Origin: Phocaeicola coprophilus DSM 18228 = JCM 13818
GTDB taxonomy: Bacteria; Bacteroidota; Bacteroidia; Bacteroidales; Bacteroidaceae
Direction of reading: 5' to 3'
DNA length: 64,000 nucleotides
Assembly (NCBI RefSeq): GCF_000157915.1
Contig: NZ_EQ973650.1
Location: 209,527-273,526 of the forward strand
The notes beneath the pieces are model-generated. The model saw only the letters and a program-made list of their open reading frames with translations, was not told the origin of the DNA and did not search any database. The translations under genes and the position numbers were made by a program. Numbering within the stretch: the first letter of the stretch is position 1; every line of letters begins with the position of its first letter. Below are positions 8,204-57,138 of this stretch, piece after piece.

Positions 8204-8292
8204 CAACGACTGGACGATCGGGCTCAAACGACCGCACGATTAGGCTTCAACGACTGCACGTTTGGGGCTCAACGACCGCACAATTTTTGGGG
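8204..8292. repeat. Four-unit 22-bp tandem repeat, family 1 copy 1
   Basis: Four imperfect units of 21-23 bp at 8204-8224, 8225-8247, 8248-8269 and 8270-8292, each built on CAACGACYGCACGATTG with a G-rich tail. The Y position alternates T, C, T, C along the array. It lies between the convergent 3' ends of the M13 peptidase and queA. The same unit occurs at 42711-42798. There are no spacers and no cas genes, so it is not CRISPR. Function unknown. Confidence 0.85.
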
Positions 8293-14146: not shown

Positions 14147-14185
14147 AGCTGGAACAGGCATAGCCGGAAAAGGCTTCCAGCTTTT
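14147..14185 (+). terminator. Terminator-like hairpin after phnW
   Basis: AGCTGGAA (14147-14154) pairs with TTCCAGCT (14175-14182), followed by TTT. Its right arm is part of repeat family 2 copy A. Confidence 0.6.
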
Positions 14186-14253
14186 AAAAAAATGTTTCGG
14201 CGTTTGAAGTAAAACGTTTCGGCCTTTTGATGAAAAGACCGGGACGTTTTTTT
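14168..14253 (-). repeat. Repeat family 2, copy A
   Basis: Read on the minus strand, it holds about three degenerate 22-24-bp units on the theme AAAACGCCGAAACGTTTT plus a short TTC linker, then TTTTTTTAAAAGC and a weak hairpin. It lies between phnW and the Smr-domain gene. Other copies are at 32121, 42871 and 56141. Confidence 0.8.
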
Positions 14254-32120: not shown

Positions 32121-32210
32121 GAAAAACGCCGAAACGTTTTGCTTCAAAGCCCGAATTCTTTTCCTGAAAAGCCCGAAACGTTTTTAAAAAAGCTGGCGGG
32201 CTTTTTCAGG
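32121..32210 (+). repeat. Repeat family 2, copy B
   Basis: Three units at about 32121-32145, 32146-32166 and 32167-32185 on the theme AAACGCCGAAACGTTTT, then TTTTTAAAAAAGC, a loop and GCTTTTT forming a terminal hairpin. It lies 60 bases past the 3' end of the antiporter gene. Confidence 0.85.
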
Positions 32211-32273: not shown

Positions 32274-33734
32274 TCAGGTTTCTGCTGGTTTTTTGTTTTC
32301 CAGCATCACCAGCAGCTTGTCGCCGGGATGCAGTTCCATCTGTCCGTTCGGAATGAGAAATTCATTGCCGCGCTTGATCAGCATGACAAGGGTTCCCTTG
32401 GGGATATTCATGTCGGCAAGGCGGTTGCCGCCGGCCAGCATGTCAGGAGTCAGGGTCAGATCCTGCAGACGGGTGTCGATTTCGTCCGGAAGTTCAACAC
32501 CAAATTCATTGCCTTCCTTTTCCTGAGGCAGGTCCAGATGCAGCAGTCTGGCTACCTTGGCGATGGTCATTCCCTGTACGATCAGCGAAAGCAGGGTGAT
32601 GAAAAACACGATGTTGAACAGCAAGTGCGAGCCTTCCACGTGTGCCAATACCGGGTAAGTGGCAAAAATGATGGGAACCGCACCGCGCAGTCCTACCCAC
32701 GAGACGAACAGGCGTGCCCGTCCGCTCAGGTTCCGGAAAGGAAGGAGACAGGCAAAGACACTGACGGGACGGGCTACAATGATCATGAAGAGTCCGATCA
32801 GCAGGCCGATGACCACGATGTCCAGCATTTCGTGCGGATTGACAAGCAGCCCCAGTGTGAGGAACATGATGATCTGGAACAGCCAGGTAAGTCCGTCCAT
32901 GAAGGTATTGATTTCCTTGCGGAAAGCAAGTCTTGAGTTGCCGACCAGAATACCGGTGATATAGACAGCCAGATAGCCGTTTCCTTTCAGCAAGTCGGTA
33001 ATGGTGAAGGTGGCAAAAACCAGGCTCAGCAGCAGGATCGGATAAAGCGAACTGTTGCTGAGGTTGATCCGGTTGATAAGCCACACGGCGAAGCGTCCGA
33101 AGGCATATCCCACAACGCCTCCCACAAAGAACTGCACGAGTAGATCCTTGGCTATCAGTCCGACGTGGAGTTCGCTTCCGCTGCTGATCACCTGAATCAG
33201 GGCGATGGTCAGCATATAGGCCATCGGGTCGTTACTTCCGCTTTCAAGTTCCAGCATGGGACGCAGGTTCTCTTTCAGATTCATCTTCTGTGAACGGAGC
33301 AGACTGAATACGGAAGCAGAGTCGGTTGACGACATGGTGGCTGCCAGCAGCAGGGAAGTCAGCATGGGCAGCGTCGGGCTTCCGGTATACCAGGCTGTAA
33401 TGTAATAAATAAACAGGCCGGTAAGTACGGTGGTAATCAGCACACCTGCGGTGGAAAGCAGAATACCCTGACGGAGCACGGGCCTGATGTCCTGGAAGCG
33501 GGTGTCCATACCTCCGGTAAAAAGAATAATGCTCAGTGCCATCATACCGATGAACTGGGCATCAGAGGCGCTGTTGAATTGAAGTCCCAGTCCGTCGCTT
33601 CCGAAGAGCATACCGACCAGAAGAAAGAGAAGCAAGGTCGGGATTCCGAAACGGTATCCCGTCTTGCTGATGAGAATGCTGGAGAAGATCAGCACAGATC
33701 CTACCAGCAGGATATTTTCGGCTGTAAATGTCAT
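32274..33734 (-). CDS. CPA1-type potassium/proton antiporter with RCK_C domain
   Basis: A 486-residue membrane protein. About 12 hydrophobic segments (residues 5-390) form the Na+/K+-H+ exchanger domain; LELESGSNDPMAYML near residue 160 contains the conserved acidic ion-binding site (GSNDP). The last 80 residues are a TrkA-C (RCK_C) regulatory domain. The layout is that of NhaP2/CvrA antiporters, which export K+ in exchange for H+. The ATG at 33734 is preferred over a TTG six bases upstream. It begins 24 bases after the IbrB-like gene, so it may belong to that operon. Confidence 0.92.
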   Translation of the reverse strand: MTFTAENILLVGSVLIFSSILISKTGYRFGIPTLLLFLLVGMLFGSDGLGLQFNSASDAQFIGMMALSIILFTGGMDTRFQDIRPVLRQGILLSTAGVLITTVLTGLFIYYITAWYTGSPTLPMLTSLLLAATMSSTDSASVFSLLRSQKMNLKENLRPMLELESGSNDPMAYMLTIALIQVISSGSELHVGLIAKDLLVQFFVGGVVGYAFGRFAVWLINRINLSNSSLYPILLLSLVFATFTITDLLKGNGYLAVYITGILVGNSRLAFRKEINTFMDGLTWLFQIIMFLTLGLLVNPHEMLDIVVIGLLIGLFMIIVARPVSVFACLLPFRNLSGRARLFVSWVGLRGAVPIIFATYPVLAHVEGSHLLFNIVFFITLLSLIVQGMTIAKVARLLHLDLPQEKEGNEFGVELPDEIDTRLQDLTLTPDMLAGGNRLADMNIPKGTLVMLIKRGNEFLIPNGQMELHPGDKLLVMLENKKPAET

Positions 33735-42340: not shown

Positions 42341-42377
42341 CATGTATTTGTCACCCTTTCCTCGAGGGTACAAACAT
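42341..42377 (-). promoter_or_regulatory. Hairpin between riboswitch and btuB, candidate expression platform
   Basis: CATGT-TTTGTACCCT and AGGGTGACAAATACATG pair on the minus strand with a short loop containing GAGGAA. It lies about 30 bases before the btuB start. No T-run follows, so control of translation rather than termination seems likelier. Confidence 0.55.
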
Positions 42378-42384
42378 GGCTTTT

Positions 42385-42572
42385 GTCTTGCAGGTCTTCT
42401 GACTTACTCCGGTTGGCCCGGCCTTCCCACCCTCCGGTTGCTTCGGGGGCAGTGGCTAAAGGATAGATGGGCAACCCTTTTTATGGAGCTTACAGCAGCG
42501 GGACTGTCCGGGACTTTCACCCGATTCCCTTTTCATCTGAAACCTCAGGAAAGGAGGTTTACAGAACAAGAC
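42385..42572 (-). ncRNA. Cobalamin (B12) riboswitch
   Basis: On the minus strand the leader of btuB holds GGGAATCGGGTGAAAGTCCC (42510-42529) and the B12-box segment CCCGCTGCTGTAA (42490-42502), then a GCCACTG...GGGAAGGC region, and near the end AGTCAGAAGACCTGC. GTCTTG (42567-42572) can pair with CAAGAC (42385-42390) as the closing P1 stem, giving a 188-base aptamer. Adenosylcobalamin-type riboswitches lower expression of the uptake genes when B12 is plentiful. Only this one operon in the window lies behind such an element. Confidence 0.95.
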
Positions 42573-42576
42573 TTCG

Positions 42577-42584
42577 CAAAGGTA
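42577..42584 (-). promoter_or_regulatory. -7 promoter box of the B12 operon
   Basis: Minus strand reads TACCTTTG, directly ahead of the riboswitch, so the transcript would begin at about the first base of P1. Confidence 0.75.
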
Positions 42585-42710
42585 GGAAACTTTTTTGAAT
42601 GTGCAATAATTCGCTGCGGGTTTATGTATGCTTCTTCCGGTGAGCATGAAACTGTTTGTCGGGAAGATGAGGAAAGAAGACTTTGCAAGTGTTTGATTAA
42701 CAATGTGCTG

Positions 42711-42840
42711 CAACGACCGCACGATCGGGTTGGAACGACTGCACGATTGGGCCGCAACGACCGCACGATTGAGCTGCAACGACTGCACGATTGAGTCGCA
42801 ATGTCCGCATAATGTTTTGGCTGTGACCGCACGGTTTCTG
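42711..42840. repeat. 22-bp tandem repeat, family 1 copy 2
   Basis: Four near-perfect 22-bp units at 42711-42732, 42733-42754, 42755-42776 and 42777-42798 on CAACGACYGCACGATTG plus a 5-base G-rich tail, then two decayed units to about 42840. The Y base alternates C, T, C, T, giving a 44-bp higher-order period. It lies in the 663-bp gap between btuB and the GH20 gene, beside family 2 copy C. Confidence 0.9.
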
Positions 42841-42870
42841 CTTGTTGCCCGTAGCCTTCCGGACCGTTGT

Positions 42871-42956
42871 CAGAAGCCGCCGGGCTTTTAAAAAAATCCT
42901 TCGACGTTTTAGTTTAAACGCCGAAGGATTTTCATGTAAACGCCGAAACGTTTTTC
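42871..42956 (-). repeat. Repeat family 2, copy C
   Basis: Read on the minus strand: units on AAAACGTTTCGGCGTTT and AAAATCCTTCGGCGTTT, then AAAACGTCGAAGGATTT, TTTTAAAAGCC and GGCTT forming the end hairpin. It begins 16 bases after the stop codon of the GH20 gene, so it may also end that transcript. Confidence 0.85.
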
Positions 42957-42972
42957 GGCTATGTATATCCGG

Positions 42973-45291
42973 TTAATTTACACCGATTTCATCTACAAAG
43001 AGGAAAGCCTTTTTGCCGGCTCCGGAATGCCATGCCGGAAGGGTAGGCGTGCATTTACCGACGATGCGCACGTAGCGGGCTTTGGTCTTGTCGAAAGCAA
43101 GCGTGTTGTGGCAGGGAACATTATTCTTGCTGCCTTTTTCCAGCACAGGGATCTGTCTGGATGCTACTTTACTGAAAGATTTGCCGTCGTTGGAAACATA
43201 AACTTCCATACCGGTCAGTCCGAAGATGTAGTCGCCCGGCACAAGGTACGTGTCGATGAAAGCTTCGGAAATCTCCTGTTCACTCTGCAGATCGATGGTT
43301 GCATCCACGTTGTTGGAATAGAATCCCATGTAGCGGCCGGAGCGGTAGTTTCCGTCTCCCTTCAAACCGTCGTTCAACAGCGTAGCTCCCTTGAAAGTAT
43401 AGCCTTTGTCGGCTTCCGAAGCCAGTGTGATGGGGCGCATCGTGGCGAGGCTGTAGTTCAGGGTTTCTTCGGTGGTTTCGCTTTCACGTCCGTTCCGGAT
43501 TGCCTTTGCCTTGATGGTCTGGCTTCCCTGTACGGGGAAAGGTTCCGTATAGGCTGCCGATGAGGCTGTCGGTTCGCTGCCGTCGGTGCTGTAGAACACC
43601 GGAGCATTGTCGAAGGTACTCAGTGTCACGAGGGCCTGTCCGTTTTCACCGGCATTGATATCGATGGTCACATTGTCGATATCCTGTTTATAGTGGTAGC
43701 CATACAGTACGTAGAGATCCAGCTGATGACGCAGGCGTCCCAGGAAATTATCGAGGTTCTTCTGTTTCGGATTGCTCCATTGCAGTTCGCTCAGGGAGGC
43801 AATGCGCGGCATCATCTGCCATTCCATTTTCACGCTGTCCTTCGTCCATTCAGTCCAGATACAGCCTTGTACTCCGATGATGCGTGCCTTTTCTTCGGGA
43901 GTCAGCTCGTCGGCAACCGGTTCGAAATTATACACGCGTGCCACACTGCTTACCCCTTTCAGGCGGTTGTATCCCGGGTTGCTGAAATAAAGGTGAGTGA
44001 TGGGGCAGACGATGGTGTTATGTCCCAGCCGGGCTGACTTGATGCGGACGTTAGGACTTGTCCATGCCATGACGGTTGTGCTCTTGGCAGGATTTCCTTC
44101 CAGAATCTCGTCCCAGGCAAGCATTTTCCGTCCGCGTGCGACGATGCTCTTTTCCACTTCGCCCATGAACCAGGCTTGCAGCTGGTTTTCCTTGGAGTGC
44201 TCCGGTGTATCCTTCAGTCCCAGCTTGCGGATCTGCGCCTGGCATTTGGGACAGGCTTCCCAGCGTTCTTTCGGACATTCGTCTCCTCCGATGTGAATAT
44301 AGGGCGAAGGGAAGATATCCATGATTTCATTGAGCACATCCTTGGCGAACTGCAAGGACTTTTCATTCCCGCCGCACAGAACGTCGGTGAAGACTCCGAA
44401 CTGAGTTGCCACTTCATACGGACCTCCGGTACAGCCCAGCTCCGGATACGAAGCGAGGGTAGCCAGCATGTGTCCCGGCATATCTATTTCGGGGATGACG
44501 GTGATATAGCGTTCGGCTGCATATCTGACGATTTCTTTGGCTTCTTCCTGGGTGTAATATCCGCTGACAGGAGTATTGTCGAACTGATCTGAACCCGGAG
44601 CCACAATGGTTTCCTTGCGGTGAGAGCCGATTTCGGTCAGTTTGGGATATTTCTTGATTTCGATTCTCCAGCCCTGGTCTTCGGTCAGATGCCAGTGGAA
44701 ATAATTGATGTTGTGCAGGGCCAGCATGTCGATGACTTCCTTCAGGTAGTCGACAGAGAAGAAGTGTCTGCCCACATCCACCAGGAATCCGCGGTAGCTG
44801 AACTCCGGCCAGTCGTTGATGGTGCCGGCTGGCAGTGAAGCCAACGTTTGACCATTGGTGATGGGAAGTGCTTTGTGAAGGGTCTGAATGCCGTAGAAAA
44901 CGGCAGCTTCCGAACCGCCTTTGATGATCACGCGGTCGGCGTTGATATCCATTTCATAGCCTTCCTTATTTGTAAGGGTTGTGTCGGTTTCCAGCATGAT
45001 GCAGTTGCTTGCGGCCGTTTCTGAAGAAACTTTCACCTGTGTACCTGCCACCTCTTTAATATAGGAAGCCAGGAATTCAGCGTTGCGCTTCATCTTTTCA
45101 TTACCTTCCGGATAACAGATGGTGGTAGAAGTACGGATCACAAAAGGATTTGCCGTGGCCTGTTCCGTAATTTCCTGCGGCAGGGGAATCACATGCAGGT
45201 TGCCGAGAGTTGTTTCCTGCTGCGAACATGCCGAAAAAGCAAGAAAGAGCAGGGCTGCTGCTGTGCAGCTTTTAAAAAAAGATGTTTTCAT
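42973..45291 (-). CDS. Beta-N-acetylhexosaminidase lipoprotein, GH20
   Basis: A 772-residue enzyme (lipobox LAFSAC, Cys near residue 22) releasing terminal N-acetylglucosamine or N-acetylgalactosamine from glycans. A GH20b-type N-terminal domain (about 30-155) precedes the catalytic barrel: FHWHLTEDQGWRIEIKKYP and HIGGDECPKERW around residue 331-342, with the catalytic Asp-Glu pair. A chitobiase/F5-8-type C-terminal part (about 540-772) carries YSTDGSEPTASSAAY (Fn3-like) and a discoidin-like domain. It is divergent from the second GH20 gene with 118 bases between them. Confidence 0.96.
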   Translation of the reverse strand: MKTSFFKSCTAAALLFLAFSACSQQETTLGNLHVIPLPQEITEQATANPFVIRTSTTICYPEGNEKMKRNAEFLASYIKEVAGTQVKVSSETAASNCIMLETDTTLTNKEGYEMDINADRVIIKGGSEAAVFYGIQTLHKALPITNGQTLASLPAGTINDWPEFSYRGFLVDVGRHFFSVDYLKEVIDMLALHNINYFHWHLTEDQGWRIEIKKYPKLTEIGSHRKETIVAPGSDQFDNTPVSGYYTQEEAKEIVRYAAERYITVIPEIDMPGHMLATLASYPELGCTGGPYEVATQFGVFTDVLCGGNEKSLQFAKDVLNEIMDIFPSPYIHIGGDECPKERWEACPKCQAQIRKLGLKDTPEHSKENQLQAWFMGEVEKSIVARGRKMLAWDEILEGNPAKSTTVMAWTSPNVRIKSARLGHNTIVCPITHLYFSNPGYNRLKGVSSVARVYNFEPVADELTPEEKARIIGVQGCIWTEWTKDSVKMEWQMMPRIASLSELQWSNPKQKNLDNFLGRLRHQLDLYVLYGYHYKQDIDNVTIDINAGENGQALVTLSTFDNAPVFYSTDGSEPTASSAAYTEPFPVQGSQTIKAKAIRNGRESETTEETLNYSLATMRPITLASEADKGYTFKGATLLNDGLKGDGNYRSGRYMGFYSNNVDATIDLQSEQEISEAFIDTYLVPGDYIFGLTGMEVYVSNDGKSFSKVASRQIPVLEKGSKNNVPCHNTLAFDKTKARYVRIVGKCTPTLPAWHSGAGKKAFLFVDEIGVN

Positions 45292-56140: not shown

Positions 56141-56230
56141 GAAAAACGTCGAATTCTTTTCCTTAAAACGCCGAAATCTTTTTATGAAAACGTCGAAACG
56201 TTTTTTTAAAAGCCCGAGGCCTTTTTTCAG
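56141..56230 (+). repeat. Repeat family 2, copy D
   Basis: Units at 56141-56164, 56165-56186 and 56187-56207 on AAAACGCCGAAATCTTTTT, then TTTTAAAAGCCCGAGGCC and TTTTTT as the end hairpin. It ends 2 bases before the stop codon of the channel gene. Confidence 0.88.
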
Positions 56231-56232
56231 AA

Positions 56233-57138
56233 TCAGAAACGTTCGTCTGCACGACGTTCCTTTTCGGGCGTTTCAGGCTTTTCCTGTTTCAGTCTGGCAC
56301 CGCAGTATTTGCAATAGAGGGCTTCAAACTCATGTCCGTCACGGTGACAGCGAGGGCAGCGGCGTTTCTCCTGTTTTTTATGTTCGCTTACCATGGTAGC
56401 CGAAACGATTCCGGTAGGTACGGCAATGATGGTGTAACCGATGAGCATGATGACGGCCGAGAGGAAACGGCCGGTCGGTGTAACGGGAGTGATGTCCCCA
56501 TAGCCTACTGTGGTCATCGTGACAATGGCCCAGTAGATGCTGTTGGGAATGTTATTGAACTGCGAGTCGGGCACATTTCCTTCAATCATATACATGACCG
56601 TTCCCATGGAGGTGACAAGAATGAGCACGAAAAAGAAAAAGATGGAAATCTTGGGAGCACTGATCCACAGGGAGCGCAGAAGAAGATTGCCTTCGTTGAT
56701 GAATGTAAAGAGCTTGAAGATACGGAACACCCGGATGAGCCGGAATGCACGGATCACCAGCAAATAGTGGGAACCGTGAAGGAAAAAGCTCAGGTAGACG
56801 GGAAGTGTAGCCAGCAGGTCGACGATGCCGAAGAAACTGAAAATGTACTTGCGGGGCTGTTTCAGGCAATAAATGCGTGCCAGATATTCTACGGTGAAGA
56901 AAAACGTGAGGATATATTCCGTGATCCGCAGGGCCAGATAAGCCGAATGGGGAAATATGTGCATGCTTTCCAGAATGACGAGCAGTACGCTGAGCGTAAT
57001 GCTTCCGATCAGAATGATGTCAAAAAGTTTCCCTTTCGGGGTATCAGATTCGAATACGATGGAATAGATTCGTTGTTTCAGGTCTTCGTCGTGCAGGAAC
57101 TGATGCCATTTTCGGCGCCATTTGGAAAGATAGTTCAT
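56233..57138 (-). CDS. Voltage-sensor-type potassium channel with C-terminal zinc ribbon
   Basis: A 301-residue membrane protein with six hydrophobic segments. S4 is RAFRLIRVFRIFKLF near 131-145, with Arg at every third place as in voltage sensors. The pore follows, with selectivity filter TMTTVGYGD near 190. After S6 the tail holds RCPRCHRDGHEF and CKYCGARLK near 265-290, a four-cysteine zinc ribbon, then a charged end. A zinc ribbon on a bacterial Kv-type channel is unusual. It is a single gene with its own -7 box at 57167-57174. Confidence 0.93.
   Translation of the reverse strand: MNYLSKWRRKWHQFLHDEDLKQRIYSIVFESDTPKGKLFDIILIGSITLSVLLVILESMHIFPHSAYLALRITEYILTFFFTVEYLARIYCLKQPRKYIFSFFGIVDLLATLPVYLSFFLHGSHYLLVIRAFRLIRVFRIFKLFTFINEGNLLLRSLWISAPKISIFFFFVLILVTSMGTVMYMIEGNVPDSQFNNIPNSIYWAIVTMTTVGYGDITPVTPTGRFLSAVIMLIGYTIIAVPTGIVSATMVSEHKKQEKRRCPRCHRDGHEFEALYCKYCGARLKQEKPETPEKERRADERF

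Follow-up and report, generated by a model that had tools for sequence, protein, structure and literature searches.

Short palindromic repeats of the REP and BIME type occur as many intergenic copies in either orientation and are reported to lie between convergent and unidirectional ORFs (PMC3733652). The same paper reports CGTC-tagged REPs in five phyla, including the Bacteroidetes (PMC3733652). Clusters of hairpins have been proposed as termination units, and clustered-hairpin or bidirectional intrinsic terminators are hairpins near stop codons flanked by an A-run and a T-run (PMC8355165). In Porphyromonas gingivalis, the BrickBuilt MITE is intergenic and carries tandem internal repeats of 23 nt (PMC4596501). 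The published map of Bacteroides thetaiotaomicron rests on predicted terminators (PMC7366714).

The arrays of Phocaeicola coprophilus described here are a genuine repeat, dispersed and shaped by lineage, whose fixed register is unusual. They share with REPs and BIMEs the short palindromic units, the many intergenic copies in either orientation and the location between convergent or unidirectional genes, but differ in having a 22-bp register, A-run and T-run ends instead of the unpaired GTAG/CGTC tag, no linked RAYT, and cores that differ by lineage on a constant architecture. With clustered-hairpin terminators they have in common hairpins near stop codons and A-run and T-run flanks; unlike these, they form one repeated family with a fixed register, spread genome-wide, for which termination is a proposed role. 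They resemble BrickBuilt in being intergenic with tandem internal repeats, but are without clear terminal repeats or target duplications, and their units are palindromic and invertible. The arrays are classed as a variant of the REP/terminator-type intergenic palindromes and not a member of the RAYT-linked REPs, from which they are set apart because the tag and the RAYT, two defining features of that group, were both looked for and did not accompany them. A literature search limited to open-licence papers met no title or abstract on such arrays, and one with six unit sequences yielded no paper, which at this scope is weak evidence of absence.

Four copies lie in the window, the whole 64,000-nt stretch of DNA that was analysed (Table 1). 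They had been noticed in a sequence-only reading, and their places and strands were re-found by sequence search and by a genome-wide model search, which located them on contig C51 at 223693 (-), 241650 (+), 252398 (-) and 265670 (+), with no fifth copy in the window. That each follows a gene 3' end closely was likewise confirmed. The copies at 14168, 32121 and 56141 are antisense to the gene they follow, and the GH20 copy alone has the same sense. Unit and junction matches were far above those in shuffled sequence: AAAACGCCGAAACGTTTT has seven window matches at up to three mismatches (0.10 expected) and TTTTTTAAAAGC has five at up to one mismatch (0.59 expected), among them 45268–45279, outside any array, and 32180–32191, inside a copy on the other strand. 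The sole Rfam match in the window is a cobalamin riboswitch (42372–42586, minus strand), upstream of a TonB-dependent receptor gene and about 280 nt from the array at 42869–42956.

Table 1. Arrays of 22-bp register in the window (genes named by Pfam; distances run from the stop codon to the model match).
Feature	Position	Strand	Units and form	Context
Array copy	14165..14253	-		Between a class-V aminotransferase gene (phnW in the earlier reading), 43 nt from its stop, and the next plus-strand gene
Array copy	32121..32206	+	U1 32123-32140, U2 32146-32162, U3 32167-32184, U4 32186-32206	After the minus-strand Na/H exchanger gene (32274-33734), whose stop is 67 nt away
Array copy	42869..42956	-	Units 1 and 2 inverted; long U2/U3 hairpin, then T-run	After the minus-strand GH20 gene (42973-45291), whose stop is 19 nt away
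Array copy	56141..56228	+	U1 56143-56160, U2 56165-56182, U3 56187-56204, U4 56208-56225, all units +	After the minus-strand ion-channel gene (56233-57138), whose stop is 5 nt away
Second 22-bp array family (GCTGCAACGACCGCACGATTGG)	42707..42809	.		Just beyond the 42869-42956 copy; a companion, not part of it

The array unit is 17–18 bp long and near-palindromic, with the ideal form AAAACG-N6-CGTTTT. Usually three units (U1–U3) are joined by linkers of about 4 bp and are followed by a junction such as TTTTTTTAAAAGC and a GC-richer fourth unit (U4). Units of 22–24 bp had been proposed; the unit-to-unit spacing is instead 22 bp, at which 24 copies, including the four from the window, align gap-free over 85 columns, and 21 bp where a T-run meets an A-run. 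This alignment excludes L010, L016, L017, L021 and L025, in which the register differs (L016 and L017 are one array). Kept across copies are the register, the A/T edges and, on the outer sides of the array, extended A- and T-runs. When 0–28 bases were allowed between two units, the matches listed (for G000, G008 and part of G007) had spans of 38 or 60 bases, equivalent to 22- and 44-bp steps, or of 37 or 59 at T-run/A-run junctions; the reversed control pattern gave no match in any of the eight genomes searched, and the two-unit pattern itself had none in one of them (G024). In 137 arrays from other genomes, with 2–9 units each, the step was 22 in 400 of 424 cases, a count in which steps of 21–23 alone were permitted and most loci were pre-selected by the 22-bp pattern. 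Unit orientations, called by core motifs in the 71 P. coprophilus copies with an assigned register, were +++ in 27, -++ in 20, --+ in 6 and of other kinds in 18, so that unit flips leave the 22-bp register intact.

In the 4.04-Mb genome of P. coprophilus the family was located at no fewer than 81 places. The model, built from the sequences of the 24 aligned copies alone, gave 152 genome matches at E ≤ 0.1; 99 match rows were merged into 81 places, of which 80 (all except the weakest) were fetched with 2.5 kb on each side. A three-unit register could be assigned in 71 of these 80, and one of the 80 lies inside a called gene, the element being a short palindromic repeat with many intergenic copies. 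Two loci, L086 and L102, differ by one letter over U1–U3 and have unlike flanks, and are candidates for a recent copy event.

Across the genus, the three-unit pattern was present in 15 of 40 genomes, with counts from 0 to 69 per strand; P. coprophilus itself gave only three per strand because its units often lack the CG edge. A strict 22-bp pattern, which demands CG edges, matched P. coprophilus alone among 395 genomes of the class, a set that holds two genomes of its genus, itself included. In a scan of named genomes, 64 of the 80 stretches listed, from at least 120 that matched, were named Bacteroides or Phocaeicola, and the remaining listed stretches were Bacteroidaceae, Prevotella or Prevotellaceae, and four others; some of these may be chance matches. 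The architecture, with differing cores, also occurs in some Prevotella. Dominant cores vary among nine locus groups (grouped by genome name, with cores pooled with their complements and some groups small): CAAGTG in both P. mediterraneensis genomes and CAMFND, CCTTGA in Ca. P. excrementigallinarum, CCGAAG/CCGAAA in isolate SI.B36 and GAGGTA in Prevotella veroralis. Searches by sequence alone would miss relatives with different cores. In Prevotella veroralis, outside the genus, loci L199, L203 and L209 have the 22-bp register with a GAGGTA/TACCTC core and up to nine units.

Eleven homologous array pairs could be aligned in close relatives, so places can be common to close species; these pairs were picked from a longer list and both loci of each were chosen as array-bearing, which makes losses invisible. 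In nine of them (L174/L232 and L194/L217, with large gaps, being excluded), differing positions numbered 27/442 in edges, 25/218 in cores, 22/111 in linkers and 123/962 in the 60-nt flanks, a comparison that favours edges, since units had been picked for their edge match in one of the two partners. Gaps of 22 bp distinguish the partners in the homologous arrays L174/L232, L241/L273 and L152/L164, which looks like gain or loss of single units.

The placement of the arrays was assessed against gene calls from a codon-usage finder, independent of annotation, for which 38 long ORFs from the window served as training set; the other species were treated with it as well. An enrichment near stop codons, suggested by the sequence-only reading, was borne out: a gene 3' end is at most 60 nt away in 48 of the 80 copies, compared with the 27.4% expected if copies were spread uniformly over the element-free intergenic DNA of the stretches examined, and among the copies with a long stem (the stem class, see below) the figure is 18 of 21 against the same expectation. 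The bias towards convergent genes is stronger still. Among 77 classified copies (of the 80, one lies in a called gene and two are without a neighbour on one side), the gene-pair context was convergent for 38, tandem for 32 and divergent for 7, compared with 16, 141 and 36 in 193 background gene pairs without a copy from the same stretches (convergent 38/77 vs 16/193, Fisher p = 5e-13). The convergent excess persists when counted per 3' end (38:32 vs 32:141, p = 1e-7), and by length convergent gaps account for 1002 of the 21863 intergenic positions open to insertion. Tandem copies are closer to the 3' than to the 5' end in 25 of 32 cases and favour neither sense clearly, 12 running with the gene and 20 against it. 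Divergent depletion in P. coprophilus is weak (7/77 vs 36/193, p = 0.065). The other genomes show a smaller convergent excess than P. coprophilus (37/111 vs 55/469, p = 2e-7) and no divergent depletion (23/111 vs 68/469, p = 0.11).

A conserved terminal hairpin, as first proposed, was not recovered: RNAalifold found no structure common to the 24 copies, returning five pairs, all across the U3/U4 junction, at -0.03 kcal/mol and with no two-sided change. Single copies, such as that at 42871, do fold at this junction. A stem class comprises 21 of the 71 registered copies, in which U1 pairs with U3 at 20 or more of 25 positions, wobble included; its mean folding z is -6.4 on the forward and -6.2 on the reverse strand, compared with -0.24 for 74 controls taken 610–700 nt upstream, and 17 of the 21 have an A-run before and a T-run after the stem, each of at least 5. 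The other 50, including all four window copies, have a mean z of -1.6 on both strands, with 17 below -2 on the forward and 18 on the reverse strand. T-runs of at least 5 follow U3 in 60 of the 71 copies, U2 in 13 and U1 in 2, counts that favour U3 since the model seed was chosen by the T-run after it, and A-runs of at least 5 are found at U1 in 54. In the 137 arrays of other genomes, a T-run of at least 5 is present at 85/137 last units and 37/424 internal units, and an A-run at 65/137 first and 35/424 internal units. Folding z is below -2 in 127 of 132 arrays of other genomes, as palindromic units alone would cause.

Where U1 is inverted and U3 is direct (28 copies), the linkers are Watson-Crick complementary at the stem register in 57 of 112 positions (permutation mean 38.3, a value of 57 being reached in 0 of 3000). 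This register (i+j=59) was read off the stems, after register i+j=60 had given no signal, and was then tested beside six others, outside any prior plan; in the same 28 copies none of the six had a significant excess (lowest p 0.06), and 31 U1+/U3+ copies had no excess complementarity (25/124 vs 28.7). Inverted duplication or template switching, rather than selection on RNA, could be the source of this complementarity, and template switching at hairpins could account for unit flips within inverted edges together with complementary linkers. With a simple terminator finder (stem ≤15, loop ≤9), a terminator was present only inside the array for 9/31 stem-class and 8/58 direct-class 3' ends and already before the array for 2/31 and 12/58, respectively (difference p = 0.13); among array-free convergent 3' ends, 7 of 16 had one.

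We give roughly even credence to the reading that the arrays are a dispersed repeat in the style of REPs, part of which works as orientation-independent terminators or transcript-end hairpins. Each unit reads as A-run, arms and T-run on both strands, and the outermost runs are longer, so that the array could act as a terminator or a transcript-end hairpin in either orientation, which would suit a gap into which two genes converge. In the stem copies, U1 pairs with U3 over the length given above, with the middle unit at the apex and the T-run after it, and the remaining copies offer short or partial hairpins. RNA polymerase would stop at the arrays, and this action would be the reason they are kept. 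Copies would spread and cores homogenise within a lineage, and arrays would persist at gene ends, where they may be harmless or helpful. The proposal that the element serves as a terminator is supported by location, outward A/T-runs and, in a subset, foldable stems; termination itself is a prediction. Against the reading speak the 50 registered copies outside the stem class with their weak folding, the results of the simple terminator finder, the missing covariation of the outer core pair and the low complementarity of linker centres (see below), the undepleted divergent placement in other genomes and the other possible sources of linker complementarity. If the reading is correct, many gene ends in a common group of gut bacteria bear a repeat of constant geometry and changing letters, which opens the questions of how a repeat spreads without a known transposase and whether the arrays set transcript ends in the Bacteroidota.

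A less likely alternative is a REP-like repeat, selfish or neutral, that plays no part in termination; it would be spread by a putative enzyme, and its location at gene ends would result only from the purging of other insertions. The 81 or more places in one genome, the range of pattern counts in the genus and dominant cores that vary by lineage all fit such a repeat, and REPs are likewise reported between convergent and unidirectional ORFs (PMC3733652). The orthologues of two genes flanking window arrays also fit. The antiporter gene has a match in 33 of 40 genomes, and 30 loci were read, including P. coprophilus (strand from tblastn); none of the 29 others has an array at the level of P. coprophilus within 400 nt of the stop, two-unit scores being 13–19 against 20/22 at the P. 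coprophilus locus, which served as a positive control. The borderline loci are L320 (19), a two-unit stretch resembling the 22-bp pattern, and L321 (18), which is weaker. The channel gene has a match in 11 of 40 genomes, all of whose best loci were read, and again none of the 10 others carries such an array within 400 nt of the stop (scores 13–16 vs 21 for its own positive control). The orthologues compared are 59–84% identical, and, judged by these genes, the place of these two of the four window arrays is not kept across the genus. Conservation of place was also assessed with the genes beside arrays from other genomes and set aside as too weak (8/18 3'-side matches on the 3'-side neighbour of an own array vs 31.5%, 111/352 by gene number). 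Against this alternative stand a convergent excess greater than the 3'-end bias, the outward T- and A-runs at array ends, edges that vary less than linkers in the homologous pairs (with the unit choice favouring edges), and the finding of neither a partner enzyme nor a clear border duplication.

The partner proposed for a mobile element of this kind was a TnpA-REP (RAYT) gene. Two Y1 transposase genes are present in P. coprophilus, with the nearest arrays listed about 8.8 kb and 47.6 kb away, and neither is linked to arrays. Among the 15 genomes bearing the pattern P. coprophilus alone has a Y1 gene, and 4 of the 40 genus genomes do overall (some are incomplete, down to 54%). On these findings a RAYT association is rejected. 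The GTAG/CGTC tag is absent from unit ends, which by inspection are AAA(A) and TTT(T), with CGTC occurring only where the core starts with TC. Border repeats of 80 own copies in a 10-nt window numbered 4 direct and 2 inverted, compared with 2.9 and 3.4 when permuted, and inverted matches in the other genomes numbered 11/136 vs 6.2. In a 16-nt window, direct matches of at least 5 were found for 17/80 own copies vs 12.0 and 27/136 copies of other genomes vs 20.6, and inverted matches in the latter for 29/136 vs 22.6. A mobile or REP-like nature is supported as to style only (many copies, lineage-differing cores, places not common to distant species); no RAYT is linked, and the excess of border repeats is not clear.

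The first Y1 frame (L165 1501–1866, G000:C58:602582-602947; 138 aa) appears by eye to be embedded in a CRISPR array whose repeats flank it on either side, and the long frame beside it looks like the usual IS605-type partner. The second (L166 1501–1836, G000:C58:219316-219651) is Y1-type and RAYT-like, encodes 179 aa and has no array in the surrounding sequence that was fetched; its neighbours by eye are a surface lipoprotein-like gene and a TonB-dependent receptor-like gene.

It is unlikely that the arrays are phased sites bound by a protein, be it a nucleoid protein, a gyrase-like one or another, that would read units about two turns apart on one face of the helix, the hairpins and T-runs being side effects of dyad symmetry. 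In favour of this, the register survives unit flips, and a second repeat family, unrelated in sequence, also steps by 22 and 44 bp (CGTGCGGTCGTTG, 65 exact genome matches). In units of other genomes, core edges obey the dyad rule ACGY/RCGT with halves that vary approximately independently; the outer pair of the N6 core shows no covariation (CG 119, CA 88, TG 88, TA 43 in 401 units), and the core is in this respect more like independent half-sites than a maintained RNA pair. The linkers too have a dyad consensus (purine at position 2 in 324/400, pyrimidine at position 5 in 335/400) without a complementary centre, the central letter pair being complementary in 58/400, rarer than the 108 permuted. 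The DNA helix repeat is 10.5 bp, however, from which 22 bp drifts; core and linker letters are variable and lineage-dependent, the outward A/T-runs are not predicted by binding alone, and the protein is putative. A bolder proposal, also fairly improbable, is that phased palindrome arrays form a new bacterial intergenic class, in which an approximately two-turn register would be conserved, cores would be re-set and homogenised lineage by lineage, and a putative trans-acting protein would read the arrays where genes end. It would thereby terminate transcription, or else anchor or relax transcription units that converge.

A MITE comparable to the BrickBuilt element in Porphyromonas gingivalis, which has a 23-nt internal minisatellite and would be moved by an IS transposase, is very improbable: the two are alike in being intergenic, with internal tandem repeats of similar length, in the same bacterial order (PMC4596501), and the direct border matches of the 16-nt window are slightly above permuted, but those of own copies in the 10-nt window are not clearly so, the units are palindromic and invert, arrays of other genomes have from two to nine of them, and no leader or tail segments were seen.

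The second family recurs in the window at 8204–8281 (GCTGCAACGACCGCACGATTGG). In the genome, two or more of its motifs lie within 300 nt downstream, beyond U4, in 17 of 50 direct copies of the first family, compared with 1 of 21 in its stem class.
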